From assembly GCA_024280485.1 (NCBI GenBank), contig JAJRQB010000030.1:1-64000 (forward strand): a DNA stretch of 64,000 nucleotides, written 5' to 3'. This document shows positions 7,559-63,613 of this stretch, piece by piece (the stretch's first letter is position 1; the number at the start of each line of letters is the position of its first letter). The DNA comes from Deltaproteobacteria bacterium. Its GTDB lineage: Bacteria > Desulfobacterota > Desulfuromonadia > Desulfuromonadales > Geopsychrobacteraceae. The position numbers and the translations under genes were made by a program. Under the pieces are notes generated by a model. It ran no database searches, was not told the DNA's origin, and worked only from the letters and a program-made list of their open reading frames with translations.

Positions 7559-10500
7559 TTGCTGCGAATGAAAGTTGATGTCTACCAGCCCCAACATCCG
7601 ATCCGTTTTGTGACCGCTACCAGCCTTTATGATGGTCACGATGTTTCGATCAATATTATGCGACGGATTATTCAGGATTCAGGGGCCGAAGTGGTGCACC
7701 TCGGGCATAATCGTTCGGTTCACGAGGTGGTCGCTGCCGCGATTCAGGAGGATGTTCAGGGGATCGCCATCAGCTCCTATCAGGGCGGGCATCTTGAGTA
7801 TTTCAAGTTCATGCATGATCTTCTGCAGGAGCAGGGCGCAGGACACGTGCGGATTTTCGGTGGCGGCGGTGGCGTCATCCTGCCGGATGAAATCAAGGAG
7901 CTTGAGGCCTACGGTATCTGTAAAATATTCTCGCCCGAAGATGGTCGGCGCATGGGACTGCAGGGGATGATTAATTACAAGCTGGAGCAGTGCGACTTTG
8001 AACCGCCACACCAGCTTGCTCGTGATCTGGAGCTGTTGCCGCAGAGCGATCATCAGGCCGTGGCAAGGCTGATCACCGCCGCCGAGCAGTTGGTCAGAGA
8101 GCCGGATGAGCAGCTGCAGGCGACGCAGCAGCAGGTTCGTGAGCTGGGCGATTCAGTGCCGGTGCTCGGTATTACCGGCACCGGCGGCGCTGGCAAGAGT
8201 TCACTGACTGATGAACTGGTACGCCGTTTCCTGCGTGACTTCAAAGAGAAGACGGTGGCGATTCTTTCGGTCGACCCGACCCGCAGGCGCACCGGCGGCG
8301 CGCTGCTTGGTGATCGAATCCGCATGAATTCTATCGATACCCCCAGGGTTTTCATGCGCTCGCTGGCGACCCGCGACTCGCGCAGTGAACTTTCTGCGGC
8401 GATCCGCGAAGCGCTCGATGTTCTCAAGGCGGCTGCTTTTGATCTGATTATCGTTGAAACCAGCGGTATCGGTCAGGGGGATGCCGGCATCGTCGAAGTC
8501 TGCGATCAGTCCCTCTACGTGATGACCAGCGAGTTTGGTGCGCCGACCCAGTTGGAGAAGATCGACATGCTCGACTTCGCCGATCTGATTGCGCTGAACA
8601 AGATCGAGAAGCGCGGTGCCGAAGACGCCCTGCGTAACGTGCGCAAACAGTACCGACGCAACCATAAATTATTTGATGCCGCGGATGAAGACTTGCCGGT
8701 CTACGGGACCATTGCCAGTCAGTTCAATGATGTCGGTGTCAGTCGGCTCTACCGGGCCTTGATCGACAAGCTGAATGCTAAATGCAGCCTCGGCTGGCAA
8801 TCGCAACTGGAAGTCGGTGAAGGGCAGAGCACCGCTCAATTAATTATCCCGCCTGAGCAGATCAGTTATCTGTCGGAAATCGTCCATATCGCTAAAGCGT
8901 ACCGTAAGCAGGTTGCCGAACAGATGCAGATCGGGCGGCAAATCTTTCAACTGAGTGGCGCGCGCGAGCTGTTGGCCGAAAAATGCGGTTGCCAGGTTGC
9001 CGACCTCGATACCCTGCTTGCTCAGGCTGAAGGGAGTCTGAGTGAGGAGAACCGTAAGCTGTTGCAGCAGTGGCCTGAGCTGAAAAAAGCTTATCGTGAA
9101 GAGGTAATGATCACCAAGGTACGGGGTAAAGAGATTCGCACCGAACTGACCACGACAACTCTCTCCGGGACGAGTATCCCCAAGGTTTGTTTACCCGATT
9201 TTGCCGATTACGGTGAGATTATCCGTTGGTGCATGAAAGAGAACGCCCCCGGCTTCTTCCCTTATACCGCCGGTCTCTTCCCCTTCAAGCGGACCGCCGA
9301 AGATCCCAAACGTCAGTTCGCTGGTGAAGGGACCCCGGAGCGCACCAATCGCCGCTTCCATTACCTGACCAAGGATGATGACGCCAAGCGCCTTTCGACC
9401 GCTTTTGATAGTGTCACTCTCTACGGGGAAGATCCCGACGAGCGACCCGATATCTACGGCAAGGTCGGCATGTCCGGGGTTTCGATCTGTACCCAGAACG
9501 ACATGGACAAGTTGTTTGCCGGGTTCGATCTCTGTGATCCGATGACCAGCGTTTCGCTGACGATTAATGGTCCGGCACCGATGCTGCTGGCAATGTTCAT
9601 GAACACCGCGATTCGCCAACAGGTGCAGAAATTTCAGGACGAAAGCGGACGCGAACCCTCCGTTGATGAGCGCGCCGAGATTCAGAGCTGTACCTTGCAG
9701 ACCGTGCGTGGCACAGTCCAGGCCGATATTCTCAAGGAGGATCAGGGCCAGAACACCTGCATCTTTACCACTGAGTTCGCGCTACGCATGATGGGTGATA
9801 TTCAGCAGTATTTCATCGATCAAAAGGTGCGCAACTACTACTCGGTCTCGATCAGCGGCTACCACATTGCCGAGGCGGGTGCCAACCCGATCAGCCAGCT
9901 CGCCTTTACCCTCTCTAACGGCTTCACCTTTGTCGAGTACTACCTGTCACGCGGCATGCATATCGACGATTTTGCCGGCAACCTGTCGTTCTTCTTCAGT
10001 AACGGCCTCGATCCGGAATACACGGTGATCGGGCGGGTGGCGCGGCGGATATGGTCGGTGGTGATGCGCGACAAGTACGGCGCCAACAAGAAGAGCCAGA
10101 TGCTCAAGTATCACATTCAGACCTCGGGTCGTTCGCTGCATGCCCAGGAGATGAACTTCAACGATATCCGTACCACTCTGCAGGCGTTGATGGCGATTTA
10201 TGATAATTGCAATTCGCTGCACACCAACGCCTACGACGAAGCGATTACCACTCCAACCGAGGAATCGGTGCGGCGGGCGATGGCGATCCAGATGATTATT
10301 AACAAGGAGCTGGGACTGGCCAAGAATGAGAATCCGCTACAGGGGTCCTTTATCACCGAAGAGTTGACCGATCTGGTCGAAGAGGCGGTGCTGGAGCAGT
10401 TTGAGCAGATCAGTCAGCGTGGCGGCGTACTCGGCGCGATGGATACTTTGTACCAGCGGACCAAAATTCAGGAAGAGTCGATGCTCTACGAACACCAGAA

Positions 10501-46917: not shown

Positions 46918-48252
46918 ATGTCCAGTGAAAACCCTACGAACGAACCCAGGCCTCGCGTTCTGATCATCGGCGGCGGCTTCGCTGGGATTGAATGTGCCAG
47001 CAGATTGGCAACGGCATCTGTCGATATTACTCTTGCCGATCGACACAATTACCATCTTTTCCAGCCCCTGCTTTACCAGGTTGCGACTGCGGTTCTCTCC
47101 CCAGCCGATATCGCTGCGCCGATCCGGCGGCTGCTGCGTAATCAACAGAACGTGAGGGTGGTGCTGGCAGAGTTACTCGGAGTTGATCTTCAGAAGCGTC
47201 GGGCCAACCTTCAGCAGGTCAAAGTTCCTTATGACTATCTGGTGCTGGCGACCGGTGCGACCCATTCATATTTCGGGCATGAGGAATGGGCGGCCAGCGC
47301 GCCGGGCTTGAAGACCGTTGAGGATGCCCTGGAAATTCGTCGTCGCGTGCTGCTCGCTTACGAAGCTGCCGAGTGGGAAGCCGATGCCGAAGCGCGTCGC
47401 GCCAAATTGACATTTGTCGTCATCGGTGGCGGTCCGACCGGTGTCGAGCTGGCTGGTGCCCTTAAAGAGATCGCCTCGCAGACCATCCCCAAAGATTTTC
47501 GTCACATCGATACCACCACCGCTCAAGTCATTCTGATCGAAGCAGGGCCTCGACTTCTGGCTGCTATGCCTGAAAAACTCGGGCTTCGCGCGCTACAAGA
47601 TCTTGAACAGATGGGGGTGCAGGTCCGGCTGAACAGTATGGTCACGGAGATCACAGAGGGACTTGTGAGTATCGGGAGTGAAAAGCTTCTCGCCGAAAAT
47701 ATTGTTTGGGCTGCCGGGGTGCGTGGCTCTGAGGTCGCAGTCACTCTGGATTGTGAACTTGATCGTCAAGGGAGGGTCCTGGTCGAGTCAGATCTGTCGC
47801 TTCCCGGACATCCAGAGGTATTTGTTGTGGGTGACCTCGCTAACTTGACCGATTTACACACCGGGCATCCCGTTCCCGGGGTTGCTCCTGCCGCGATTCA
47901 AATGGGTCGTCATGTGGCAAATCTGATCCGTGCCGACCTTGCCAATCTTGTTGATGGCGAACATGCACCACGCAAAGCTTTTCATTATCGTGACAAGGGG
48001 AGCATGTCGACCATCGGGCGTAACCGAGCCGTGGCTTCTCTCGGCGGCCGCCAGTTCGGCGGATTTTTTGCGTGGTTGATCTGGGGGGTGGTACATATCA
48101 TCCCTTTGATCGGTTTCCGCAATAAATTGTCGGTCATTTTTTCCTGGCTCTGGAGCTATTTTTCGTTGAGCAAAAACGCACGGTTGATTACCGGGCGCCC
48201 CAAAATGAAAGTTAAGCGGGTACGCGGAGTTGATGAAAATAATCAGGCTTAG
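46918..48252 (+). CDS. type II NADH dehydrogenase-like FAD oxidoreductase
   Basis: VLIIGGGFAGIECASRL, HNYHLFQPLLYQVATAVLSP, FVVIGGGPTGVELAGAL. Confidence 0.92.
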   Translation: MSSENPTNEPRPRVLIIGGGFAGIECASRLATASVDITLADRHNYHLFQPLLYQVATAVLSPADIAAPIRRLLRNQQNVRVVLAELLGVDLQKRRANLQQVKVPYDYLVLATGATHSYFGHEEWAASAPGLKTVEDALEIRRRVLLAYEAAEWEADAEARRAKLTFVVIGGGPTGVELAGALKEIASQTIPKDFRHIDTTTAQVILIEAGPRLLAAMPEKLGLRALQDLEQMGVQVRLNSMVTEITEGLVSIGSEKLLAENIVWAAGVRGSEVAVTLDCELDRQGRVLVESDLSLPGHPEVFVVGDLANLTDLHTGHPVPGVAPAAIQMGRHVANLIRADLANLVDGEHAPRKAFHYRDKGSMSTIGRNRAVASLGGRQFGGFFAWLIWGVVHIIPLIGFRNKLSVIFSWLWSYFSLSKNARLITGRPKMKVKRVRGVDENNQA

Positions 48253-48314
48253 GAGCAATAGGTTCCTGCCTTATCCAGTGAATAACCTTAAAGTGAATAG
48301 AAACGGAGAATGCG

Positions 48315-49103
48315 ATGCGCTGCCATGAAGTCGATTACACCATAGTTGGTGATGATATGCAGATGGTCCAGGTTGAGTTGGATCCGAGTGAAACGGTGAT
48401 CGCCGAGGCCGGGGCGATGAACTACATGGAAGAGGATATTCAGTTTGAAGCGCGAATGGGTGACGGTTCGCAGGCTGATCAGGGGTTGATGAGCAAACTG
48501 TTCAGCGTCGGTAAGCGCGTGCTGACCGGTGAGTCAATCTTTATGACCCATTTTACCAATCAGGGTCGCGTCAAGCGGCATGTTGCCTTTGCCGCCCCTT
48601 ACCCCGGTAAGATCATTCCGATGGACCTGGGCAAGCTCGGTGGTGAAGTCCTCTGTCAGAAAGATTACTTCCTCTGCGCCGCTCACGGCACCAGTCTCGG
48701 GATTGCCTTCCAGCGTCGTCTCGGTGCCGGTTTTTTTGGTGGCGAAGGGTTCATCCTGCAGCGTCTGCAAGGTGACGGCATGGTCTTCGTTCACGCCGGT
48801 GGCACCATTATCGAACGACATTTGCAGGGTGAAACCCTGCGCGTCGACACCGGCTGTCTGGTCGCCTTTGAGCCGAGTATTGATTACAACATTGAACGGG
48901 CCGGTAATTTGAAGAGCATGTTTTTCGGTGGGGAAGGGATGTTCCTCGCCACCCTGAGTGGCCATGGCAAGGTCTGGTTGCAGAGTCTGCCGTTCAGTCG
49001 CTTGGCCGATCGGATAATTGCTCATGCCCCAAGAGCAGGTGGTTCAGATAAGGGCGAAGGTTCTGTGCTCGGCGGGATTGGCCGAATGCTGGATGGTCGT
49101 TAA
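48315..49103 (+). CDS. TIGR00266/AIM24 family protein
   Basis: 262 aa; [32 protein letters not shown]. Confidence 0.88.
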
Positions 49104-49666
49104 CGGCATTTTTCTAAAAGCAGTCATCTTGGGGATCAACCGGATTCACTGGCTTTCACTAAATCTGTTCGGAGGATATCCACGGTGAAACGTGCTCAAG
49201 ATTGGTCGCCCGAAGAAAAGAGAACCTGTAGCCCAGCGCAGTGTCTTTCGAACTCTCCCGGATTTCTGAAATCGGTCTAATGTTGTGCCTGAAAAGATAA
49301 CAACAGAGGTATGAACAATTCCTGTAATAACTGTATGCATTGCATTCATAACCCGGTTTGGATTGCTGGATTGACGCCAGTCAGGTCCACAAACTGTGGT
49401 AATAACGCAAAAGCGGGACTGTTCAGTTATATGGATCAGTTCCATCGCTTTTAGCACGCTTCATGACCCGCCGTATACGGAACAGTACGCACGGTGGTGT
49501 TTCCCCTCCTGTGTCGGGTCTGTTTCCCAAAATCTTTTCATACCTGTCAAATCTCAGATTTCTTCAGAACATGGAGGTATAACGACAATTGCCCTTGTAG
49601 GCATAAATTACCTTATGAGAGCCATTTCAAAAAATATTTCCATTCTTCTCTGTGGCGTGCTAGATT

Positions 49667-49683
49667 AGTCTAGTTTTTAGACT
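49667..49683 (+). promoter_or_regulatory. inverted repeat, candidate operator of the BrxR/CapW-like regulator
   Basis: AGTCTA-N5-TAGACT about 30 nt upstream of the TTG start, next to a weak TAGATT -10-like hexamer. Confidence 0.45.
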
Positions 49684-49712
49684 GTGAATAATTTTTAGCC
49701 GGTGAGGTTGTT

Positions 49713-50569
49713 TTGGAAAACTCAAGCGAATTGGACATCAAGTGGGGCGTGAGGCAGCGACTTCAATTTCTTGAACGCGAACTGTTCTGGACTGGGATGA
49801 TTTCTCGGCAAAGTCTTATGGGATCGACGGGCATTTCCAGGGCTCAGGCCAGTATAGACATAGCTTCTTACAAAAAACTGGCAGGGGAAAACCTAATCTA
49901 TGACCTCAGCAACAAGACTTACCGAGTGTCCGAAAACTTTAATCCGGTTTTTGTTTCAACTTCTCCACATGCTTTTCTCGATCAGCAGGTTGGGGTCTGT
50001 GCCGAATACACCTCTCTTCCTTTTCGTGAAATTGATCCATCTCACCTTCGGCTCATTCATAAGGCGGTTATTAATAAGTACTGGGTCTCGATTGATTATC
50101 AATCGATGACCTCTAGCGGCTTGTCTTCGCGCACGATCGCACCACACAGTTTTGTCTCCGATGGTGCACGCTGGCACGTCCGAGCTTACGACTTTATAAG
50201 CAATGAGTTTCGGGACTTTGTGCTTGGGAGAATCAAAGAGGCGGTAGAGACCAAACTGGAGGGTCCAAACGAAGAACTCAACTGGGAAACCCAGCACGAC
50301 ATAGCGTGGGAAGACGAGGTCGAACTTGTGCTACCCCCCACCCGGGACTAAAGCCGGAACAGAGGGATGCTATTTGCTCGGACTATCGGATGTCTGAAGG
50401 CCAGACAGTCCTGTCCGTTCGCAAAGCCTGCCTGTTTTATATAGTGTCGAGGTTGCGACTTCTGGATGAGGCTGATGATCCTGCAATTCAGCAGATAGTA
50501 ATGGCAAACAAAGAAGAGATCAAAATCCTCCTGAAGAGTCCACAATCGATGGGGAAAACGCATGGCTAA
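49713..50569 (+). CDS. BrxR/CapW-type wHTH-WYL-WCX regulator, split by a 1-nt frameshift at about 50334-50341
   Basis: 49713..50351 gives RLQFLERELFWTGMISRQSLMGSTGISRAQASIDIASYK plus WYL; the -1 frame continues HPGLKPEQRDAICSDYRMSEGQTVLSVRKACLFYIVSRLRL to 50569. Confidence 0.8.
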
Positions 50570-52085
50570 AAAACAGAACAGCTCCCAAACACTCGATATG
50601 TTCTCTTACGAATTCTACAATGTCGAAGAAGATTATGATTTTGAGGATGTCAATCAAACAGAACAAGATCGGGACATGTTTGATCGGACGAGTGCCTTGC
50701 TGGCTTACTTTCCCCTCGTCAATGCTGGGGTTACTGCTCGTCGTTCGCCGTTTCACCTCCTCGACCAACGTTCCCTGTCTTTATCAGCTCTAAATTTTTC
50801 GATTCGCAGCGTTGGTCTTGGCGATATTTCTGATGGAGGAGTTCAGCGAGAGACTATGGTGGAGGCTCTGGTCGAATTGATCCTGGAACAAATCAAAGTC
50901 CACCCCGATATCTCAGAGTATCCTTCCGACGATCAAACGCAGCAATATGCTGCTGATTTGATCCAGTACCTTATGGAGCCGGTATGTGCCAGCATTTATC
51001 ACCCCCAATCCAAAGAATTTAAAACCGTATCTTTACAAGTTTTGAAGGAAGTGGATGACCCGTACGGGAATTTTTATATTCGCCCCTCTGTTGAAAGCAC
51101 AAACCTGTTCCTCGGGTCTCTGAAAATGTCCCTGACCGATGATCAATTTATGTTGCAGGCCTTACTGGAACACCAGATTGCACAAGGGTTGATAAAAAAT
51201 GCTTTTCAAACGGCTCGAAAACTTCAAAGACGGACCCTTTTCTACAGGGAAGAAATTTTAGACAAGAAACGCAGAATGAGCCTGAACGTTCGCTCTGTAA
51301 ACTGGGGCGAGCATGTTGAGTCGAAAATAAACGAAATCAAAGAGTCACTTCCAGTGCTGCTTGAGACCAACCGAAAGATACTCAGCAGTGTCCAGGGTAA
51401 CTTTGAGCTGCGGCGCAGCGAGCGTGGACATATGGTTGCCGCTTTGATTCGAGAGATAAGGGACTGTATCGATATTCACAAAGGGCTACAAAACGAGCTG
51501 CAGTCACTGGACAGCCACTACCAGAAAGAGCAAAGCCGCCAGGCTTTCTATTCGCGATGGGGTCAAACGCTGCCAAACATGGTTGACGATGTTCTCTACC
51601 CGCTGATGGGGATCAAACCCAAATACTTGGGAAAGGTCAGTGAATCCCTTTTGTCTATCTTTTCTCCCCCTGGTGCAACTCATGTTTATGACCTGAAAAA
51701 CGTCGTCATGTCTGCCTTACGTGAAAAGAGGGTTTTTGAAGACCATTCAACTGACGATGAAGATCTTGATCTTGAAGTTGCCGCTCAAGCGGAAAAACCA
51801 AACTTCTCCAAAGAAGATTCAGGCAAAGCCGTGGATTTTATCACGGCCTCTGTTCAGGAGGGTCCCCTTCCTCTCTCTGAAATCATGGCGAAAGGGATCA
51901 ACTCAAAGCTTAAAAACCCTGTGCTGCACGCGATGGCACTGATGGTTGTTATCTATTGGCCCGAGAATCATTATCACGATCTTTGGACAATAACGAAAAA
52001 AGAGAACAGTTTTACTAACCATATTTGCAGTAGCGATGATTTTCTGATTACTGCTGTCAAGGGATCGCTCAATGGACCTCAATGA
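50562..52085 (+). CDS. jetA: Wadjet-like JetA (kleisin-position subunit)
   Basis: 507 aa, first structural gene of the overlapping JetABCD-type operon; assigned by position and size. Confidence 0.7.
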   Translation: MAKKQNSSQTLDMFSYEFYNVEEDYDFEDVNQTEQDRDMFDRTSALLAYFPLVNAGVTARRSPFHLLDQRSLSLSALNFSIRSVGLGDISDGGVQRETMVEALVELILEQIKVHPDISEYPSDDQTQQYAADLIQYLMEPVCASIYHPQSKEFKTVSLQVLKEVDDPYGNFYIRPSVESTNLFLGSLKMSLTDDQFMLQALLEHQIAQGLIKNAFQTARKLQRRTLFYREEILDKKRRMSLNVRSVNWGEHVESKINEIKESLPVLLETNRKILSSVQGNFELRRSERGHMVAALIREIRDCIDIHKGLQNELQSLDSHYQKEQSRQAFYSRWGQTLPNMVDDVLYPLMGIKPKYLGKVSESLLSIFSPPGATHVYDLKNVVMSALREKRVFEDHSTDDEDLDLEVAAQAEKPNFSKEDSGKAVDFITASVQEGPLPLSEIMAKGINSKLKNPVLHAMALMVVIYWPENHYHDLWTITKKENSFTNHICSSDDFLITAVKGSLNGPQ

Positions 52086-52815
52086 TATAAAAAGCGCCTC
52101 CGAATTGATTGCCCTTGCTCTTCGCAAGCCGCTGGTTAATCCGAACCGAAGTGGCGGTCTTTACAGCGATCTGATTAACACCTATCACGCCAGCGGCGAA
52201 TTTGCTGAGATAGTCCGCTCAATTGCTGAAGGCTTTGGCCTACGGATTCTGGATGTAAACGAAAACGGACTTTTTCTTGCTGCAACAGGCGAAGAATCAC
52301 CCTTTCGAGCGAAGCTTGAAACGATCAACACCAGCTTGCTCACTCCCGAATTACGTCAGATTTTTGGGCTTGCCCTGGCGACCATTGCGGCCATTTATTA
52401 CCAGACAAACACATCTCTCCTTGAGGATATGGCACCAAGTACAACGGTTTATCAGGTTCGGGAAGAATTGATCAATATTGCTCGAACTCGCATTGAAGAT
52501 ATTAACAACGGCGATGAAGACTACTCCGACATAGACGAAGCCTGCAGAGTTATCTTGGAGATCCCGGTAACCAATTCAACCGAAAAAGGTGGCCAGAAAA
52601 AAAACACGTTGACTCGCTGGATTCAAAAGGCTTTCGATTTTTTGAAGGATGAAGGCTTCGTCAAAGACCGCGGCAATGGTGAGTACACAGCATACAGCCG
52701 ATTCCGTGTTCATATGCGGGAGTTTATGGCCATTGAAGCCTATCAGACGGTTGCTGAGATCATGAAGCGCCAGGAGATGGAAATTCTGGAGGAACGGAGC
52801 GAAGACCATGCCTAA
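52072..52815 (+). CDS. jetB: Wadjet-like JetB (wHTH/kite-type subunit)
   Basis: 247 aa between JetA-like and SMC-like genes, overlapping both; C-terminal wHTH-like segment. Confidence 0.68.
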   Translation: MDLNDIKSASELIALALRKPLVNPNRSGGLYSDLINTYHASGEFAEIVRSIAEGFGLRILDVNENGLFLAATGEESPFRAKLETINTSLLTPELRQIFGLALATIAAIYYQTNTSLLEDMAPSTTVYQVREELINIARTRIEDINNGDEDYSDIDEACRVILEIPVTNSTEKGGQKKNTLTRWIQKAFDFLKDEGFVKDRGNGEYTAYSRFRVHMREFMAIEAYQTVAEIMKRQEMEILEERSEDHA

Positions 52816-55800
52816 GATAAAATCTGTCCACCTATCTCGCGTTGGGCATCCTTCTGCTCGCCTGGACGGTGTGACGATCTACTTCACGCACAAAGGGGAC
52901 CCTTATGGAAGGCCCGAAGACACCATCTTGGCTCTTAGAAATGGGGGTGGTAAGACCAGCTTGCTGCAGTTACTCTTTTCGACCTTCGTTCCGGACAAAA
53001 GAGAATTCTCTGGCAGAACAAGCGAAGGGGGTGAACGAACCTTCGAGCAATACTTTCAAGCTAACGATCTTGGCTTGATTGTGACAGAGTGGGATTTGGG
53101 TAAAGACATGCCGAAACGAATTGTCGGCCAGTGTGCTGTTAAAAATTCAGCCTCTGACACAGATCCTGAACGCTGTTTTTTTAGTTTTCTGGATACCGAT
53201 ACAGAAACGGACTTCAAGCTATCAGATCTTCCCATGCGGCAATTCAAGAGTCCGCATAACTCAGGGAATGCCAGCAGCCTTAACGCTTTCAAACAACTTC
53301 TGCGACATGCGTTCGCAACTCGGCCGCACCAGCAACTTCTCATAACCTCAACACAAAGAGAATGGCAGAGGCATCTGCGCTCCTGGGGCTACGAACCCGA
53401 TCTGTTCCGCCTTCTTATTGCACTTAATAAGTCCGAAGGTGGTTCCAAGGAAATGGCAAAAGAAAACTTTGGGACAACGGAGAAAATGATTGGCCTCATC
53501 GCCATGCTTTCAATCTCTGATCATGACAGGAAAGACGGTAAGGGCTCTACCAATGTGAGAGATTTGGTTACCAAATACCGTGAAAACTTGAATCATCTTC
53601 CTGAGAAAGAAGCAGAAAAGAAAATGTGGGAAAGACTGACTCTTGGTCTCACGGAGTTGATTGTCCCTGGCAAAGAGCTTGAAAAAGCTCAAAAGGAATC
53701 CAGCGAAGCTTATTCCAAGCTACTATCTATCGGTCAGCGTGTTCTTGCGACACCAGCTGTTCTGAATAAAAAAATTGCTGATACAGAAGAAGAGGTCAAG
53801 GTCTTTAATAGCCTTATCGGCCAGAAACGCCGACACTTGCAGTCTCTCGACAAACAACAACGTTGGGTTGATAAAGAAATTTTACGCCTTATTCTCGATA
53901 CAGCACAAACCAATCTCGAAGTGGCTAAACAAGCCAAACTTGAGCGTCAGAGACATCTGAACGGCTTACACGCCCACAACCTCCAAATGGAGATAACCGC
54001 TCTCGAAGGCCAGTGCAGCGGCCTGCAGGTTGCCATAAATGAGGCAACAGAACCGACACGCGATATTGAAAACACGCTACATGCCATTGGCTTTCGTCTG
54101 GACACGCTTTTAGGTGGAAAACTAACAGCGGCAAAAGGCAGGTTCAAGGTTGCGGAAGAGAGATCAGGTAAAGCAGAACTTCAATTAAATCAACTTCGCC
54201 AGCAAGAGCGCAAGATAGATATTGAGCTCGGGAAAAACGAGGCAGAAGTGTCCTCTTTGAACTCATGGTTCGCTGAAGCGGGCAATGCTAAACAACGACT
54301 CGTTGATACGAATTACCTGCCCGATCTGGAGTATGTAGCAGCGAGTGCCTTTGAGACAAAAAATTCTCGAAAAGTGGTGCTGGCAGAAAACCTTCAGTTA
54401 CTGGTGAACGAGGGACAAAGGCTTGCGGAGCTCAGAGATGGACTACTCGAAGCAAAAAAGGACTCTGAGTCGGAACTGAAAGCGGCTGAAAGTAAGCAGG
54501 GAAAACATCAAGAGGCGGAAGAAAAGTATCAAAAGGCTCTGGTCGAAATCACTACCGACAAGAATCTTTGTCTCTTGATTGAATCAGAAGAAGTTGACCC
54601 CTATTCCCCGTCGTTACCTACACTTCTTGAGGACAAAGAGAGCCGGCTTTTACACGAAAAGTTCAACCTCGAAGTCGAACAGCGCAGGGTTCGGGAGTCT
54701 CTTAACTTCTTAGAAGGCGATTACAGGCTGATGCCACCCCCGGAAGATGTCTGGTGTATCGCTGAGCTTCTGAAGGATGATGGTATTCCCGCCTACCCGT
54801 ATGTGAAGTATTTAAGTGAGATCAACCTGTCTTCTGAAGCGATTCGTGAGCTTCTGCAAAAAGACCCCGCCCGATACGGTGGGGTATGTATCACTTCCAG
54901 TAATGATTTGGATCGTGCCAGGGATATTGCTGGAGAGGTGTCAACCTTACGAGGTCCGGTACAGATCTATCCTCTGGACAAACATACAGAAGAAATGGTT
55001 TCTGGATCGACCGATGTATCTATCGTCTCCCTGCGAGCATCAGATGCGACATTCGACAGAGTTGAAGCCTCAGCAAAACAGCGTGAACTGGATACAGAAA
55101 TCGAGGGCAGAGAGAAAGCGATTGAAAAAATTGATGTCCGCATTGAAACGATCAAGGAGGCCAGGGACAGTCTCAAGATTTTCCTTGTCAAATATCCAGA
55201 GGACACGGCAAACAATCTGGAATTCGAAAAAGAATCAATCCAGGATGAGATAACCCTTTGCAATGAAAAGTTCAGTGAAGCCGTCGGTGTTTTCGTTGAG
55301 CATGAGGGCTTTATTTCTGAGAACAGTGGCCAGCAAGAAGTTTTAAAAGAACAGATCGGAGGGATTACTCAAGCTTGCCAGGCTCTCGAAGTCTATATTT
55401 CCAGTTATGAATGCCATTGGTTTGAAAAAAACAATCACAAGCACGGTTTGGCGATAGCCCTTGAAGACTTGAAGCAAAAACAAAGCGATATCAATAAAGA
55501 CCGGGTAAAATGGACCTCCGAAAAAAAATCAGCTGATGGAGAGATTTCTGCGGAGAACGCTCTCATGACTGATTTTTCCCAGATGATCAGCGCTCTGTCT
55601 TATAAAGAATCTTCTCGCGGGGAAATTCCGGAAGAGGTGGATCACGACAATGTAGACAGCTTGAAAGCCCTTTATCATTCTAATCGCAAAACCTTTGAAG
55701 AAAAGAATACCAGCATTGAAGGGTTGATTGTCCAGCGTAACAACTTTAAGCAGAGAATTGCTGAAAAAGAGCAGCAAAGAGATGAATTCGCCCTGGATCT

Positions 55801-57256
55801 TTCAATTGACGTGCTGCAATCTATTGCCACTCAGTATGGGGAGAACAAGGTCTCTGGTTCTCTTCTCGACGCAGTGCTTGATGATCTCGAAAAAGCCAAG
55901 GAATGCTTCACGTTGGCAAATAACGCTGTTGGCGTTGCGGTTCAGGACAGGGATAAGTTCCCAGGTGGCCCTTCTGATTATGAGGTGCCTGAAGATGGTG
56001 AAGACCTTAAATCAGAGGACGATTTCAGGACGAAAAAATCTGTTTTGGCAAGTTCTCTCGAAGAGACAAAGACTCTAAAAAGGGAAATTGAACAGCAAGT
56101 GTTGTCTCTTGGTCAAGTTGTCGACTCAATTAATAAAGACTTGTCATATCTGGGGAAACTTATCGCGCCAGTCAAAGAAAAAACTGGGGCTCATAGTGAG
56201 TTTTCTTCTTCGATGGGATTTTTGAGTTTTGAAGAGGCGTCTTCGGAATGGAATGGGGCTGATCTCCACCATGAGAATACAAGAAAAGCGGAACGATCAC
56301 GGTTCGAATTGGTAAATAAAAAGAAAAGCTTAATTACCCAAATTATTAACGATGATAGTTTCAACAATGTCGTGACCATAATAAGACAAAGGATTAATGG
56401 CCAATACGATACTCTGCATCTTGATGCGACCGAATATGCGCAAGAAGCACGGAATGCATATGATTCTGTAAGCTACAGTTTGGCCAAGACGAAAGACCAA
56501 CAGAAAGAAATTGTTGATTATCTGCTTGATGATGTCCGTAGCATCAAATCTAACTTAGAGGCTCTAGACCGTATTTCTAAGATCCCTGAAAGCGATACGA
56601 AGTGGGCAAAATGGGGTGGCCGGAAATTCTTCAAAGTAAAGATTGAAGGTAAGCGGATCGATGATGGTTTTTGCCGGACAAAGATTGAAGATTATGTTCA
56701 AGCCCTTGCCAAGGCTAATGACAAAAGCTTCCCTTCAAGCGCTCAAGCAATCATTGAAGGGGTTGCGAAATACTCACTTAAAGACATTACCAAGATTACG
56801 ACAATGAAACCGGATCACTTTATGAGCACCGACCCAGTAACTCTCGAAGAAGCAGCTAAATGGTCAGGTGGTGAAGGATTTACTTACGCAGCCCTTTCTC
56901 TGATGATTCTCAGTCGGTTGATCTCGCACGTCAATGCTTCAGTAAATGTCGGCGGCGGAATTCTGGTGGTGGATAATCCTATCGGAACTTGCAACCATCT
57001 TGAGTTTATAAAGCTCCAGCAGATTGTCGCTAAAATGTTGGACGTCCAACTGCTCTACCCGACTGCGGTTAAGGACCTTGACGCATTAAGTTTGTTCCCA
57101 AATGTTGTGTCCTTGTCCAATAACCATATCGATGCAAAAACTGGTTTCAAACATGTTCGTGTTGAATCAGGCAAGGACGACTCGCCGGGGTTAAGTACCG
57201 CCCATATGACTTTTTCTTCTGAGGTGGTGAATGTTCAAAACAGCACAGTTCAATGA
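52808..57256 (+). CDS. jetC: Wadjet-like JetC (SMC/MukB-like ATPase)
   Basis: 1482 aa; Walker A LRNGGGKTSLLQLL, long coiled coils, AAKWSGGEGFTYAALSL signature, Walker B GGILVVDNPIG. Confidence 0.85.
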   Translation: MPKIKSVHLSRVGHPSARLDGVTIYFTHKGDPYGRPEDTILALRNGGGKTSLLQLLFSTFVPDKREFSGRTSEGGERTFEQYFQANDLGLIVTEWDLGKDMPKRIVGQCAVKNSASDTDPERCFFSFLDTDTETDFKLSDLPMRQFKSPHNSGNASSLNAFKQLLRHAFATRPHQQLLITSTQREWQRHLRSWGYEPDLFRLLIALNKSEGGSKEMAKENFGTTEKMIGLIAMLSISDHDRKDGKGSTNVRDLVTKYRENLNHLPEKEAEKKMWERLTLGLTELIVPGKELEKAQKESSEAYSKLLSIGQRVLATPAVLNKKIADTEEEVKVFNSLIGQKRRHLQSLDKQQRWVDKEILRLILDTAQTNLEVAKQAKLERQRHLNGLHAHNLQMEITALEGQCSGLQVAINEATEPTRDIENTLHAIGFRLDTLLGGKLTAAKGRFKVAEERSGKAELQLNQLRQQERKIDIELGKNEAEVSSLNSWFAEAGNAKQRLVDTNYLPDLEYVAASAFETKNSRKVVLAENLQLLVNEGQRLAELRDGLLEAKKDSESELKAAESKQGKHQEAEEKYQKALVEITTDKNLCLLIESEEVDPYSPSLPTLLEDKESRLLHEKFNLEVEQRRVRESLNFLEGDYRLMPPPEDVWCIAELLKDDGIPAYPYVKYLSEINLSSEAIRELLQKDPARYGGVCITSSNDLDRARDIAGEVSTLRGPVQIYPLDKHTEEMVSGSTDVSIVSLRASDATFDRVEASAKQRELDTEIEGREKAIEKIDVRIETIKEARDSLKIFLVKYPEDTANNLEFEKESIQDEITLCNEKFSEAVGVFVEHEGFISENSGQQEVLKEQIGGITQACQALEVYISSYECHWFEKNNHKHGLAIALEDLKQKQSDINKDRVKWTSEKKSADGEISAENALMTDFSQMISALSYKESSRGEIPEEVDHDNVDSLKALYHSNRKTFEEKNTSIEGLIVQRNNFKQRIAEKEQQRDEFALDLSIDVLQSIATQYGENKVSGSLLDAVLDDLEKAKECFTLANNAVGVAVQDRDKFPGGPSDYEVPEDGEDLKSEDDFRTKKSVLASSLEETKTLKREIEQQVLSLGQVVDSINKDLSYLGKLIAPVKEKTGAHSEFSSSMGFLSFEEASSEWNGADLHHENTRKAERSRFELVNKKKSLITQIINDDSFNNVVTIIRQRINGQYDTLHLDATEYAQEARNAYDSVSYSLAKTKDQQKEIVDYLLDDVRSIKSNLEALDRISKIPESDTKWAKWGGRKFFKVKIEGKRIDDGFCRTKIEDYVQALAKANDKSFPSSAQAIIEGVAKYSLKDITKITTMKPDHFMSTDPVTLEEAAKWSGGEGFTYAALSLMILSRLISHVNASVNVGGGILVVDNPIGTCNHLEFIKLQQIVAKMLDVQLLYPTAVKDLDALSLFPNVVSLSNNHIDAKTGFKHVRVESGKDDSPGLSTAHMTFSSEVVNVQNSTVQ

Positions 57257-58271
57257 TTTCTTAAAAACCCTTCCGAAAAAAAGGGTTACAATAGATCTGC
57301 AAACGCTCTGGCTCACCTTTGGTCGTTGCTTCCCGGCAGAGGTAGGCTCTGGCCAAAGTCGGGAAATCCTTTCTTCACTGATAGAGGTGATGGTTGAAAA
57401 CGGATATCGGCTACCATCTTCGAACAAAAAGAACTATGACCGATCAGCTTTTCCCCAACTCCCCTTTTGGATTAAACAGCCTGAACAAGAGAAACAACTT
57501 AAATTCAACCCCAAAAATCATCTTTGGGCTCCCGAACTCGCTTTTTTAGCTTCCCGGACAAGACTGGTAAACCACGAACTATGGCTTCGTGTTAATTTCT
57601 GGCTTAAAGACAACCGGAACCGAGATATCCCGTTTATCCCTTTGCGCGAACGTTCTTACCAGATTTTTCGCGACGAAAAGGCATTAGATGCTTTGAGAAA
57701 AACCTCACCGTTTCTCAAAAAAGAAATTACCCTTGAAGAGTTGCGTTGTTTTGTTGTTTACGAACCTCTTCCGACTGAATTGGGACCACCTTCCGCAGTC
57801 GGAAAGTCAGCCCTGATTGTGGAAAACCAGACGACACATTGGAGCATCGCGCACTGGAACAGATCATCTGGCCGGTATGCCTGTGTTGTCTATGGGGGTG
57901 GGAACAAAATTTCAGCAGCCTGGGAATGGCTTGTGTTGAAGCAACAGGAGTTCAAGTATTCGGAGATTAAATATTTCGGGGATATTGATGTCACTGGTTT
58001 TGAAATCCCGCAAAGAGTAAAAAAGCAGATTACAGAGATATCAGAAATTCCCTTTAGCCTTGATGTCGATCTTTACTCATTGCTCATACAAGAAGAGCAA
58101 GGAAAGATTCACCTTCCGTCACAAGGCAAGACGGATGTTTCGTCAGATTTATTGGAGGGATTGCCTAGTCAATTGGCAGGCCAGCTTAGAAAGGTTTTGT
58201 TGGTTGGGAATAGAATTCCTCAGGAGGCAATTACTCAACAAATTCTGTCCCAACAATTTAATAGGCTTTGA
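57231..58271 (+). CDS. jetD: Wadjet-like JetD (Toprim-like nuclease subunit)
   Basis: 346 aa; ALIVENQTT, CVVYGGGNK, KYFGDIDVTGFEI Toprim-like motifs; last gene of the operon. Confidence 0.82.
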   Translation: MFKTAQFNDFLKTLPKKRVTIDLQTLWLTFGRCFPAEVGSGQSREILSSLIEVMVENGYRLPSSNKKNYDRSAFPQLPFWIKQPEQEKQLKFNPKNHLWAPELAFLASRTRLVNHELWLRVNFWLKDNRNRDIPFIPLRERSYQIFRDEKALDALRKTSPFLKKEITLEELRCFVVYEPLPTELGPPSAVGKSALIVENQTTHWSIAHWNRSSGRYACVVYGGGNKISAAWEWLVLKQQEFKYSEIKYFGDIDVTGFEIPQRVKKQITEISEIPFSLDVDLYSLLIQEEQGKIHLPSQGKTDVSSDLLEGLPSQLAGQLRKVLLVGNRIPQEAITQQILSQQFNRL

Positions 58272-58278
58272 TCGGGTC

Positions 58279-58320
58279 TAATCCCCCGCAGCTTGCTGCG
58301 GGGTGATTCATTTCAGCTCC
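58279..58320. repeat. REP-like hairpin with CTTG loop
   Basis: TAATCccCCCGCAG-CTTG-CTGCGGGGTGATTCATTTCAGCTCC; flanks resemble 59186..59230. Confidence 0.5.
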
Positions 58321-58329
58321 GCTTGGAAA

Positions 58330-58476
58330 AATCGGCAATTGTTGAACGCTGGGCACAGCATTGTTGATACTGCACTAGAAACTGGGCTTACTGATCAGGT
58401 GCCTCTGACCCGCTATTTCAAAACTAAATTTGGCATCCATCCAGGTCTTTACTGGCGTCAGATTCTAAATACTTAA
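58330..58476 (+). pseudogene. AraC-type HTH C-terminal relic
   Basis: RQLLNAGHSIVDTALETGLTDQVPLTRYFKTKFGIHPGLYWRQILNT*. Confidence 0.8.
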
Positions 58477-58555
58477 GTAGATCAATTTTGTACAAGAACC
58501 TCCCTTTGCTTCTCTGGTATTGATCAAGCCAGAAGAATGCAGAAAGGGGAAGTTG

Positions 58556-58699
58556 ATGAACAAATGGCTACGAAACCGGCTACGGGTATTTCTGTTATGC
58601 CAACAGCAGAAGCGACAATTACTGGCTATGGATGAATGAATACGTAATGACCTTGCCATTAGCCGGTTCGGATTGCTGAACAACTTGCGGGCAGATTTG
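58556..58699 (+). pseudogene. DUF1127-like small protein interrupted by in-frame TGA
   Basis: MNKWLRNRLRVFLLCQQQKRQLLAMDE*IRNDLAISRFGLLNNLRADL; aligns to LaxLDDRLLxDIGISR with the stop at Arg. Confidence 0.65.
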
Positions 58700-58741
58700 A
58701 GTCCCCAGGATGTCCAAAATTACACAGGGGAGAACGAGAAT

Positions 58742-59101
58742 ATGTCTAAAGAGACAAAGCCGGTCATATCCTATGAAGATTCATTCGAGAAGCTTGACAT
58801 AAGAGTCGGTAGAGTCATTTCCGTTGATCTTGAGACCGAGACCTTTAAGCCGACGTATAAAATGAGCGTAGATTTTGGCAAATTTGGTAAACGAATCAGC
58901 TATGGCAGGTTCACTCAGCACCCTGTGGAAGAGGTCAAAGACAGGTTGGTATTGGGCGTCTTGAACTTTGAACCCCGGCAAATGGGACCAGTGACTTCCG
59001 AGGTCTTGATCTTGGGTGTTCAATATCCAAAAGCTGAGAGCGGTGAGGCGACCTTTGTCTCACCAGCAGTCAATGCAAAGGTTGGCAGTAAATTATTTTA
59101 A
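58742..59101 (+). CDS. csaA: CsaA-like tRNA-binding domain protein
   Basis: MSKETKPVISYEDSFEKLDIRVGRVISV; start chosen from GGGGAGAACGAGAAT-ATG rather than the longer ORF. Confidence 0.88.
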   Translation: MSKETKPVISYEDSFEKLDIRVGRVISVDLETETFKPTYKMSVDFGKFGKRISYGRFTQHPVEEVKDRLVLGVLNFEPRQMGPVTSEVLILGVQYPKAESGEATFVSPAVNAKVGSKLF

Positions 59102-59185
59102 TTGTCATACTTGTTCTGAATATTGAAGACAGAATAAGTCCCGGGTCGTTATAGAAATCGGGGCTTTTCTGAAGTTCTTTTTTTA

Positions 59186-59230
59186 TAATCCCGCACTGTC
59201 TGTCGCCTGTGGGGCGATTTACTTCGCTCC
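59186..59230. repeat. possible diverged second copy of the 58279 REP-like element
   Basis: TAATCCCGCACTG...GTGGGGCGATTTACTTCGCTCC. Confidence 0.35.
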
Positions 59231-59241
59231 TGCTGTTGCTC

Positions 59242-60300
59242 TTAAGGACTATTTCGGGACGATGGGGCTGGTATTGATTTACCGCTCATTTTTTTGCGCA
59301 AAAAACCAAAGATTCGCCCATCGATTGCTGCCAATCCCAGACAGATAAGCCCCATACCAGCGAAATCTTTCAACGCGAGTTGCTCTTCAAGAAAAAACGC
59401 CCCGAGCAAGATCGCGCTGATCGGAATGAGAAATGTGACCAGCAACAGGTTTGTCGCTCCTGCTGTTGCCAGAATGCGGAAATAAATGATATAGGCGAGT
59501 GCGGTTGAAAACAATGCCAGTCCGAACATCGCGGACCAGGTTTCTACTCCGGGCATAGCGAGAGTCCAGGGTTGATCTACGATGACAGCCAGAGGCACCA
59601 ACAGGATGGTTGATGCAGTCACTTGGCCGGTTGCTGTCACCAGTGGCGCTATTCCATAACCTTTGAAGCGCCGGCCGTAAACCCCGGCGAAAGCATAAGA
59701 GAGCGCGGCAGTGAGGACCGCCAATTGAGCCAGAGTATTGGTGCCCAGAGTCCCTATGCTATCCAGACCGATGATCACGGCGGCCCCTGCAAAACCGACG
59801 ATAATGCCGACCAGCCGTCCGCCCGTGAGTTTTTCGTCTTTGGTAAACGCATGGGCAACGATGACGGTGAAAATCGGGGTTGTTGCGTTAAAAATCGATG
59901 CGAGGCCACTGGCGATGTGGGTCTGGCCCCAGACAATCAGACAGAAAGGGATCATGTTGTTGAGTAATCCCATACCAAAGAACGCGCCCCACAGCCGACG
60001 GTCTGTCGGCATCCGTAATCCGGTCGCACGCACCACCAGGTTAAGCGCAATTGCCGCCAGACCGACACGCAGAGCCACGATGGTGAATGGTGGCAGGGCC
60101 TTAACGGCAACCCCGACAAAGAAAAAAGACCCGCCCCAAAGAACAGACAGAATAATAAGCAAAAGCCACTCGGTGGCACCCATCGTATGATTAACAGTTT
60201 TCATGTATGACTCCATGTTGTTTGCGTTTGCGCACAACATAGACTTGTTTTTGGAGGGCGACCACCCGATTCTTGCGCTGCCGTAAAAAATCATTTCCAC
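59242..60300 (-). CDS. EamA/DMT-family transporter (true start probably near 60204)
   Basis: 10-TM EamA repeats; LLIILSVLWGGSFFFVGVAVKALPPFTIVALRVGLAAIAL. Confidence 0.9.
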   Translation of the reverse strand: MEMIFYGSARIGWSPSKNKSMLCANANNMESYMKTVNHTMGATEWLLLIILSVLWGGSFFFVGVAVKALPPFTIVALRVGLAAIALNLVVRATGLRMPTDRRLWGAFFGMGLLNNMIPFCLIVWGQTHIASGLASIFNATTPIFTVIVAHAFTKDEKLTGGRLVGIIVGFAGAAVIIGLDSIGTLGTNTLAQLAVLTAALSYAFAGVYGRRFKGYGIAPLVTATGQVTASTILLVPLAVIVDQPWTLAMPGVETWSAMFGLALFSTALAYIIYFRILATAGATNLLLVTFLIPISAILLGAFFLEEQLALKDFAGMGLICLGLAAIDGRIFGFLRKKMSGKSIPAPSSRNSP

Positions 60301-60467
60301 AGTTAAAAGTAGAATCGTGAGCTGAATTCCGCTCAGTTGCCTGAAGAGGGTGAGCTTTGCTTAAATCAATAAGTCGATGTTACGGATATGAACTATGAAA
60401 ATCTCCAAAATCCACATTTACAAGGCATCATCACGAGGTCCTAAAAAGAATACAGATCCTATCGAAT

Positions 60468-61229
60468 TTAAACGTCGAAAGTTTTAGTTAGTTGCGTGGC
60501 CAGTTGTTGTTCAACGCTGGTGATAAAGGATTCAGAACTCAGCTGAGAGGGGGGAAGGGTTTTTCGAAGAGTTGTGCAGGCTGCAGGGTCGAACTGTTGC
60601 GGGTTGTTGCACAGACTGTAGAGTCGGTTGATCCTGGCAGTTACCTCAGGCAGATCGAGATCGACCAGCAGACACGCGTGCGCAAGGACCGCCGCATGCT
60701 CACGGTTGCCACCTGCCCAGCGTTGAGCCGTCCCGACCAGCTTTTTTCCTTCGATCTGCAGATTGAAGCGGCCATCACAAAATGAACCCGGCACCTCGCC
60801 GGTTTCGGCCTCTATCCCATAGCTGGCCAGTAACTGACCCAGCAGGACGCAGAGCAACAGATAACCATCCTTCAAGGTCCAACCTTTAATCCTGGGATGA
60901 ATCACTGACAGGCTAAGCATTCCCGGCCCCTGTGGTACACAGGACCCACCAGAGCTGCGCACGACCACCGGCCAGCCCTCTGTGGCAAGGGTCGCGCTTG
61001 CCTGCGCGAAATTCTCCATCCGCGCTTCTCGCCGCGTCACCACCAGACAGCGGGGCTCTGTTTTTATGCAGAGGCAGGGACCGCTCTCGCCGCGCCCGAC
61101 CTGTCGTAATAAGTTTTCGTCAAAGCGGATGCTCGTCTCCGGGTCGCTTATCAATTCAGGACGGAGCAGTTGCCAGGGCTGGTCGAACTTCAGGGTGGGG
61201 AAACGGTGGGTGATTGGTGGCAAGGTCAT
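60468..61229 (-). CDS. lipoate-protein ligase A family protein
   Basis: RRSSGGSCVPQGPGMLSLSVI-type motif, GKKLVGTAQRW. Confidence 0.85.
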   Translation of the reverse strand: MTLPPITHRFPTLKFDQPWQLLRPELISDPETSIRFDENLLRQVGRGESGPCLCIKTEPRCLVVTRREARMENFAQASATLATEGWPVVVRSSGGSCVPQGPGMLSLSVIHPRIKGWTLKDGYLLLCVLLGQLLASYGIEAETGEVPGSFCDGRFNLQIEGKKLVGTAQRWAGGNREHAAVLAHACLLVDLDLPEVTARINRLYSLCNNPQQFDPAACTTLRKTLPPSQLSSESFITSVEQQLATQLTKTFDV

Positions 61230-61272
61230 TTCAGAAGTTTACTTGAAAAAGCCCGCGAACTCTATGCTGACT

Positions 61273-61959
61273 TTAAGGTACGTAGACATAAAACCACTTA
61301 GCATTGAGCAATGTTTCCACAAAAGCTGTTGGATCAGACATTCCAATCAGGTGTTGGTATGATTTCACTGCAAATTTTCCCGGCTCAATTGCCATGTAGA
61401 TATCACTGATTGCATCACCTGATTCCCAGGGACCAATATCCATCGCCTTGATGATTGCCTCTCTACGCAATGTCGGTAATGCCGCTAATTGGGTTGAATG
61501 AGCCAGATATTCTTGTGGGCCGGGGCTTATTGGCTTGAATTTCAAATTGTGCTGTACCACGGCATGCGCTACCTCATGCGCGATGGCCCCTCTGTAGTGT
61601 ATTCGGTCAAAAGGTTCGCCGTACATCTGTGGATGTTTTTCTCCTTTTAAGATCGCAGCATAGGACATCAGTTGAATGTGGTCATTGCGGCTGTCGTAAC
61701 TGCCATAGGCATCATAGCCGTGATTGCTGATCTTCTCTTCAACAATGTCAAAGTGGATTTTGCGCTGAAGACTCAAATTGTAACGGGATAGAAAGACGAT
61801 CGCTTGGTTCGCTGCAAGGCAGATTTCTACAATGTTCTCTTTATCCTCTGAAGAGACTTCAACGTTGGGCAGATTGGGACATTCGAGGTCCTGAGAGAAA
61901 CCGAGGGATGGAAGAATCAGGAACCAAAGGACAAGCAGAGTGGTAAGCGCAAGACGCAT
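61273..61959 (-). CDS. secreted protein with HExxH (HEVAH) motif, putative metallopeptidase-like
   Basis: signal peptide; RGAIAHEVAHAVVQHNL. Confidence 0.65.
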   Translation of the reverse strand: MRLALTTLLVLWFLILPSLGFSQDLECPNLPNVEVSSEDKENIVEICLAANQAIVFLSRYNLSLQRKIHFDIVEEKISNHGYDAYGSYDSRNDHIQLMSYAAILKGEKHPQMYGEPFDRIHYRGAIAHEVAHAVVQHNLKFKPISPGPQEYLAHSTQLAALPTLRREAIIKAMDIGPWESGDAISDIYMAIEPGKFAVKSYQHLIGMSDPTAFVETLLNAKWFYVYVP

Positions 61960-62048
61960 ACTGTTCCTCCTTTGTTGAGGTTCTTCAGTTCATCATATAA
62001 GGGTTGGGGTGTCGTTGGGAATAGTGTCGCGGTTTATTTTTGTGGCTC

Positions 62049-62408
62049 TCAACCTTTTAGCCAGTGGTCGAATTCCCGATCCGTCTGTTCAGCATCGCCG
62101 AAATTCAGTTCCAGCAGCCGCCGCAGTTGAATCATGCTGTTGCCATCTTCTTTAGTGAAGCGGAAGCCGTAATCGTCCCCTTTTTGGTGCACCAGTTCCC
62201 CACGGAATTCCAGGGTCTGATCGGATGAGGGAAGGAAGATACTCAGGGCACAGCGGTCACCGGGTTTCAGGGGTAAGCCACCAGGAGCGTGAAAAAGAGC
62301 CCCCTGTAAAGCCAGATCGGACAGATCACAGGTGTGGCCGTGACCTGCGTGGGTTACCAGGGCGACTGTTTCAAATGGGATACGATGAAATTGGCGCTGC
62401 TCGGACAT
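62049..62408 (-). CDS. PilZ domain protein
   Basis: RQFHRIPFETVALVTHAGHGHTCDLSDLALQGALF. Confidence 0.88.
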   Translation of the reverse strand: MSEQRQFHRIPFETVALVTHAGHGHTCDLSDLALQGALFHAPGGLPLKPGDRCALSIFLPSSDQTLEFRGELVHQKGDDYGFRFTKEDGNSMIQLRRLLELNFGDAEQTDREFDHWLKG

Positions 62409-62661
62409 GGTTCGACTCCTTGGCTTGAGATATCGATTCTTCAGTCACGTAGCCGACGGCGGGTCCTGTGAGTATAGCATGTTGAAAGCGACTCATTGAT
62501 ATAGATGGAAGTGGGATTTTTGAGAAAAAGAGGATATAGCACTGATGTGATTTTATTCCATTACAATTTCATGGTAACCGCCAATTATGCTAGAATCTTG
62601 TTCAATAAATAATCAGTACGCAGCAGAATAGCCGCGTGGCCACCAGCTTCAGGAGGAAAAA

Positions 62662-62883
62662 ATGAAGGTCAGTATCGAATATTGTGGACAGTGAAACTAT
62701 CGCGATCGAGCCGCCGGTCTGGCGGCCAAATTTTCAGAAAGTTTTTCAGCAGAGACCAGCTTGATCGAATCTGGTGGCGGTGTTTATGAAGTTGTGGTTG
62801 ACGGTCGATTGATCTATTCAAAAAAAGCGACCGGAGAATTTCCTGATGAAGGGTTGCTGCTGGAGAGCTTGGCAAAACCTTGA
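62662..62883 (+). CDS. SelW/Rdx-family selenoprotein, UGA at 62692..62694 read as Sec
   Basis: AGGAGG RBS; MKVSIEYCGQUNYRDRAAGLAAKFSESFSAETSLIESGGGVYEVVVDGRLIYSKKATGEFPDEGLLLESLAKP*; GCCGCC-GGTCT-GGCGGC hairpin downstream of UGA. Confidence 0.88.
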
Positions 62884-62926
62884 GCTGAACTTTTCTGGTT
62901 TAACATTGACGCAGTTCTGATTGAAC

Positions 62927-62963
62927 TAAGGGCCAAGCTTGCAACTGTGCAAACTTGGCCCTT
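62927..62963 (+). terminator. Rho-independent-type terminator hairpin
   Basis: TAAGGGCCAAGCTTGCA-act-GTGCAAACTTGGCCCTTA, one mismatch, AT-rich tail. Confidence 0.75.
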
Positions 62964-62991
62964 AATTCTTTATTATTCAAATGGCTGCTTT

Positions 62992-63393
62992 TTAAGCCCC
63001 GCCCTTTGTCATCGCAAGCACGCCCTTGAGCCAGGAGATTTCATCCGGGCCGAATTGCTTATCATGCTCGGTGCCAACGTTCATGGCCCAATGAATTTCC
63101 GGGGATGAGATCTCTACGAGTGCAAATCCCGGCATCTGCGCGCAGGGAACATGTTTCTCGGCCCAATCGTTCAGACGCTTCTGTTCATCGAAAAAGACCA
63201 GAAAGTCGTTCCCATCATTTTCGATAATCAGAGGTAGTTCGACCACCTTCTCCCCTTTTTTTTCCTCAGAGCTCATCTTCTTGATCGGGACGAAGAAGAT
63301 TGTATTTAGAAACAGGCTGTAGAAGGTCATTTTGACGTTGGGATCTTCAGGGTTGGCCTTTAAGGCTGCGTGTGCTTTATCGAGCTCAGTCAT
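62992..63393 (-). CDS. SseB-family-like protein
   Basis: 133 aa; DFLVFFDEQKRLNDWAEKH, GFALVEISSPEIHWAMNVGTE. Confidence 0.65.
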   Translation of the reverse strand: MTELDKAHAALKANPEDPNVKMTFYSLFLNTIFFVPIKKMSSEEKKGEKVVELPLIIENDGNDFLVFFDEQKRLNDWAEKHVPCAQMPGFALVEISSPEIHWAMNVGTEHDKQFGPDEISWLKGVLAMTKGGA

Positions 63394-63613
63394 GGAGAAT
63401 TGCCTATACTATTTTGAGTTTTAAGTTCGGATTAAGTTGAAGGTCGCTACCCTAACAGATTGGGCAACGCTTTGTCATGGCGTGTAGAGTGAATCTCTGA
63501 GATGCAACAATTTGTTTGTACCGCTAATCGCGTATAAAAACAGTTTTGTCAGGCGCATTTCGGAGAACAATAACCACCTTGCTGAAATATCAGGTTCTTA
63601 TTTAAATCGACGT

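Follow-up and report, generated by a model that had tools for sequence, protein, structure and literature searches.

Gene content of the locus

The window, i.e. the whole stretch of 64,000 nucleotides that was analysed, contains a jetABCD operon headed by a gene of the CapW/BrxR regulator family (Table 1). According to the ORF list, the four jet genes lie on one strand and overlap by 14 nt (jetA/jetB), 8 nt (jetB/jetC) and 26 nt (jetC/jetD). A search with the PADLOC profiles gave matches to JetA3, JetB3, JetC3 and JetD3 in the expected order. An earlier note, made from the letters alone, had called the operon a Wadjet system, had left its subtype open, and had assigned JetA and JetB by position. 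The profiles bear out the Wadjet call and settle the subtype as type III.

Table 1. Positions of the genes and sequence features of the locus, numbered from the first letter of the window.
Feature	Position	Strand	Properties
Insertion (genomic island) carrying the Wadjet operon	49126..60469	.	About 11.3 kb; 167 bp instead in the close relative G069 (L125)
Candidate operator dyad, AGTCTA-GTTTT-TAGACT	49667..49683	.	Perfect 6-bp arms, 5-nt spacer; 29 nt 5' of the regulator start codon; includes the word TAGTTTTT
Candidate box 1, TAGTTTTTAG	49671..49680	+	Copy of TADTTTTTAG
Candidate box 2, TAATTTTTAG	49689..49698	+	18 bp after box 1; 14 nt 5' of the TTG start
CapW/BrxR-type regulator, 5' part (wHTH + WYL), 212 aa	49713..50351	+	PDB CapW 9c5g, E 3e-31; BrxR 7qfz, E 3e-22; Pfam WYL
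CapW/BrxR-type regulator, 3' part (WCX domain), 87 aa, other frame	50306..50569	+	Matches CapW 7tb6 residues 218-289, E 3e-11
Run of six C near the frame loss	50334..50339	+	Read from sequence; CapW/BrxR similarity switches frame here
jetA (type III, putative kleisin), 507 aa	50562..52085	+	PADLOC JetA3, E 3e-40
jetB (type III, KITE subunit), 247 aa	52072..52815	+	PADLOC JetB3, E 6e-8; Pfam DUF6063
jetC (type III SMC ATPase), 1482 aa	52808..57256	+	PADLOC JetC3, E 4e-99; Walker A NGGGKT, signature WSGGE, Walker B VVDNP
jetD (Toprim nuclease subunit), 346 aa	57231..58271	+	PADLOC JetD3, E 4.5e-66; Pfam JetD_C
GC-rich hairpin, candidate transcription end	58284..58303	+	8-bp stem; just 3' of jetD; read from sequence; weak T run after

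The predicted structure of JetB (pLDDT 84) was compared with the PDB, and the top nine matches were all JetB or MukE (probability 0.97-1.00, E 0.003-0.03, TM by query length 0.35-0.41), so that the JetB assignment is now backed by both a profile and a JetB/MukE-like fold. For JetA, the assignment gained a profile match; its structural model was of low confidence (pTM 0.38), with two MukF kleisins as the best PDB matches, followed by unrelated helical proteins. JetC carries the Walker A and signature motifs of SMC-type ATPases, and the JetD Toprim residues E198, D251 and D253 (Glu and DxD) are intact and invariant among 7 relatives. A search of all six ORFs against NCBIfam gave zero matches, and JetC and JetD profiles found nothing among PDB sequences.

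Since the JetB and JetA models match MukE and MukF too, we considered whether the SMC operon could encode a chromosomal condensin of the MksBEF or MukBEF kind instead of a Wadjet. This is scarcely credible, as all four genes match type III Jet profiles, a Toprim JetD is present, and the jetD product scores far above the JetD1/2 profiles with JetD3. The operon is a type III Wadjet, and all four working genes are apparently intact.

The Walker B motif of JetC (residues 1386-1391 of the window protein, encoded at 52808-57256) reads D-N-P in all 58 members of the surveyed type III loci in which the motif was detected, and the usual catalytic Glu is therefore missing family-wide. A review notes that LmuB of Lamassu has a comparable change, from Glu to Gln (PMC10586767).

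Genomic setting

The operon is horizontally acquired and lies on a low-GC insertion. Window positions 46978-49125 and 60470-63479 align (93% and 89%) to stretches of G069 that lie 167 bp apart, and GC content is ~45% inside the insertion vs ~53% in the left flank. A search around the insertion found neither a tRNA close by nor an evident direct repeat at its flanks. Scans of viral contigs with JetD and JetC revealed no relatives, so a phage-borne form was not seen.

The insertion also holds a gene with a tRNA_bind domain (58673-59101) and an EamA transporter gene (59242-60300, minus strand), neither with an evident link to defence. Positions 58358-58474, 3' of jetD, appear to encode part of an AraC-family DNA-binding domain; the lack of a full ORF suggests gene decay inside the insertion. 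Beyond its right end, the G069 counterpart of the ORF at 61273-61959 contains several frame-breaking gaps and looks like a pseudogene.

A broken CapW/BrxR-type regulator gene

The earlier note had described five overlapping same-strand ORFs, the first being a single regulator ORF that overlaps jetA. The family of the first gene was correctly named, as both pieces match the sequences of CapW/BrxR structures, and the four Jet ORFs stand with their sizes and overlaps, but the regulator is not a single ORF and the number of ORFs is in fact six. The 5' part begins at TTG 49713 and meets an early TAA at 50351, 210 nt short of jetA; the remainder is read in another frame, and the 8-nt overlap with jetA belongs to this 3' piece. 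With the split at 50334-50351, the wHTH, WYL and WCX domains are not contained within one ORF. Among PDB sequences, the 5' part also matches CapW 7tb5 and 7tb6 and BrxR 7t8k. Mutation of S. maltophilia CapW has shown R32 and S42/Q45/S47 to be needed for DNA binding (PMC9122588). These residues are present in the window protein with identical numbering, and are kept in all CapW-type regulators of Wadjet loci that were aligned. Judged by its sequence, the first gene is a broken member of the CapW/BrxR repressors.

The closest related operon, L022, comes from the same taxonomic order but another family (JetA 70%, JetB 81%, JetC 54% and JetD 57% identical). Its regulator is intact, in a 281-aa ORF with a TTG start as in the window. 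A search of the whole genome with the L022 regulator gave the two window pieces as the only BrxR-like matches, with no second intact copy. The regulator is likewise intact in ten loci with a divergent arrangement (see below), and is split in none of the other relatives. Because L022 has an intact regulator, the window repressor has probably been inactivated, or else has been misread at one homopolymer.

In the case of a sequencing or assembly error in the C run, the strain would have an intact CapW-type repressor controlling the operon as in L022. The break does lie at a homopolymer in a draft assembly of 178 contigs, and the out-of-frame 3' part is stop-free and as conserved relative to L022 (51% identity) as the in-frame 5' part (52%), although a recent real mutation would look identical. 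Alignment of ~10 kb of coding sequence with G069 showed no comparable frame break inside intact window genes, the exceptions being one gap at a poorly aligned gene end and several in a gene apparently broken in G069. This argues for a real mutation, which we favour, on the evidence of one homopolymer in one draft assembly; an error has some claim to consideration, but we think it unlikely.

The C run might also act as a switch, with replication or translation slippage toggling a full-length repressor and making the Wadjet phase-variable. The position of the break at six C and the continued conservation of both regulator halves would fit such a switch. However, for phase variation a tract of six C is short, L022 has five C at this site, and the other relatives are unsplit, which together make a switch highly improbable. 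Programmed frameshifting was also put low, since L022 does not keep the run of six C.

Occurrence of the regulator in other type III loci

A genome scan using a JetD alignment yielded 80 type III loci; an earlier scan with a two-row JetC alignment and poor peptide patterns had found nothing. Regulator pairing was counted in the 41 other loci (L022 and L027 included) in which jetA could be recognised and was preceded by about 900 nt or more. An intact gene of the BrxR/CapW type lies directly beside jetA in 11 of these 41. It is on the same strand as jetA in L022, and divergent in L042, L043, L044, L069, L070, L071, L075, L077, L097 and L101; as L042-L044 are nearly identical, about nine of the 11 are independent. 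Elsewhere in the surveyed loci there were two BrxR-like matches, both weak. The other 30 loci have no such gene, and the regulator is therefore not required for type III Wadjet. In six loci from the same taxonomic order, with weaker JetD matches and type I/II size, a BrxR-like gene was absent from the fetched stretch.

A tree of the regulators, in which plasmid homologues from other contexts were included and whose inner forks are weak within the CapW-like part, places a BrxR(Efer)-like group (L042, L069, L097) apart from the CapW-like regulators, with the window and L022 as a pair of their own. The L042 regulator matches BrxR 7qfz with E 8e-79. The regulators thus come from two or more well separated lineages, and the tree supports their recruitment to type III Wadjet at least twice, possibly three times. 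A clade of regulators specific to Wadjet was not supported, as the tree does not unite the window and L022 with the betaproteobacterial CapW-like and the BrxR(Efer)-like regulators in a single clade.

Other genes were seen beside jetA in the survey. L027 is another type III locus from the same class; there, jetA is preceded by a gene (8546-9700, minus strand) for a 385-aa protein in which an HTH is fused to an IrrE/ImmA-like peptidase. This fusion is reminiscent of CapH+CapP, and the slot before jetA may be taken here by another kind of damage-type regulator. Seven actinobacterial loci (L045, L047, L048, L054, L063, L085, L092) have an ORF of ~1000 aa immediately 5' of jetA on the same strand; those of the ORFs that were scanned singly are Rad50/SMC-like ATPases. 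The PADLOC mad3 profile was matched by seven of 42 surveyed jetA neighbours.

Candidate operators upstream of the regulator

The sequence motif TADTTTTTAG occurs in 3 copies in the 64-kb window, vs 0.23 expected, and two of these form the pair of boxes 1 and 2 upstream of the regulator. L022 has just two copies, 17 bp apart, the second ending 13 nt 5' of the TTG start. The paired boxes are thus common to the window and L022 at matching positions, and are predicted to be candidate operators. No consensus sigma-70 promoter was found beside the boxes.

Of 7 CapW-type regulators in Wadjet loci, 5 have the word TAGTTTTT in the 120 nt on their 5' side. The word is missing from all 29 type III loci that lack a regulator, although these loci are mostly GC-richer, so that an AT-rich word is less likely there by chance. 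Sharing of the word as high as that observed was reached in 0 of 500 shuffled sets. In L075 the word is part of a perfect dyad of 13 bp. The box is absent from L070 and L101, and from the BrxR(Efer)-like group.

These arrangements bear on whether the regulator is a mere neighbour, inherited within a defence island and not controlling jetABCD. Genes of the BrxR type are found alongside many defence systems (PMC9122601), and the majority of type III Wadjets do without one. Nevertheless, the regulator lies within the apparent jetABCD transcription unit (window and L022) or divergently (ten loci), always at the jetA end, and the shared boxes sit at the presumed regulator promoter. We therefore regard the mere-neighbour explanation as quite improbable. 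The comparative evidence favours control of Wadjet by a CapW/BrxR-type regulator.

Proposed working of the locus

CapW and BrxR repress adjacent immune operons via palindromes near the promoter (PMC9122588, PMC9122601, PMC9122589), and by homology the intact regulators of L022 and the other loci should repress jetABCD. Repression of the neighbouring operon by CapW is released by single-stranded DNA, as summarised in PMC13373217.

We think it fairly probable that the window carries an acquired type III Wadjet that was ancestrally CapW/BrxR-repressed as in L022, and that its repressor is now broken, with the operon probably expressed without control. In the ancestral form, a dimeric CapW/BrxR-type repressor would bind the boxes at its own promoter and keep the regulator-jetABCD transcript low until a signal releases its hold; by analogy with CapW, this signal may be single-stranded DNA. 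Once made, JetABC (SMC, putative kleisin and KITE subunits) would extrude and recognise small circular DNA, which JetD would cut. The window repressor, broken between WYL and WCX and lacking the WCX part, would likely have lost repression. We infer box binding, repression, release by single-stranded DNA, and derepression in the window genome from these comparisons.

By a more speculative extension, which we consider doubtful, type III Wadjets under CapW-type control would be inducible by single-stranded DNA: a conjugating plasmid would enter in single-stranded form, bind the regulator and lift repression, so that the anti-plasmid complex is made as the plasmid circularises. The window strain would then be a constitutive variant without the switch.

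If the recruitment of ssDNA-sensing CapW/BrxR repressors is indeed repeated, anti-plasmid immunity would be tied to the entry of plasmids or to DNA damage, and the boxes are compact enough for this link to be tested directly. Whether an unregulated Wadjet is tolerated would become apparent from a natural operon whose repressor is broken.

Comparison with known systems

The window operon resembles Wadjet type III, as defined by the PADLOC JetA3-D3 profiles, in gene order, gene sizes, all four profiles, the JetD Toprim residues and the JetB KITE fold. Its proteins differ considerably from those of most other surveyed type III operons (JetA and JetB 16-26% identical, JetD ~33%), and together with L022 it forms a separate branch among the surveyed operons.

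The regulator resembles CapW of CBASS (PMC9122588; 9c5g, 7tb5, 7tb6) in its wHTH and WYL domains and in R32 and S42/Q45/S47, with the WCX domain in a second frame; a palindrome that may correspond to a CapW operator lies 5' of its start. It differs in that the adjacent operon is a Wadjet instead of CBASS, and in its broken frame. BrxR of BREX (PMC9122601, PMC9122589; 7qfz, 7t8k) belongs to the same family and has the same architecture. The close relatives of BrxR(Efer) are the regulators of L042, L069 and L097, whereas the window regulator is nearer to CapW.

In our literature collection, which is incomplete, no paper on the transcriptional control of Wadjet was found. Picton et al. 2022 state, in one aggregate sentence, that BrxR homologues co-localise with many systems including Wadjet (PMC9122601); type III Wadjet operons, operators and a repeated arrangement are not described in the main text of that paper. 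Because of that statement, the pairing of BrxR with Wadjet is itself already known. The recurrence of the pairing in type III loci, its two orientations, the shared boxes and the broken regulator appear to be new detail.
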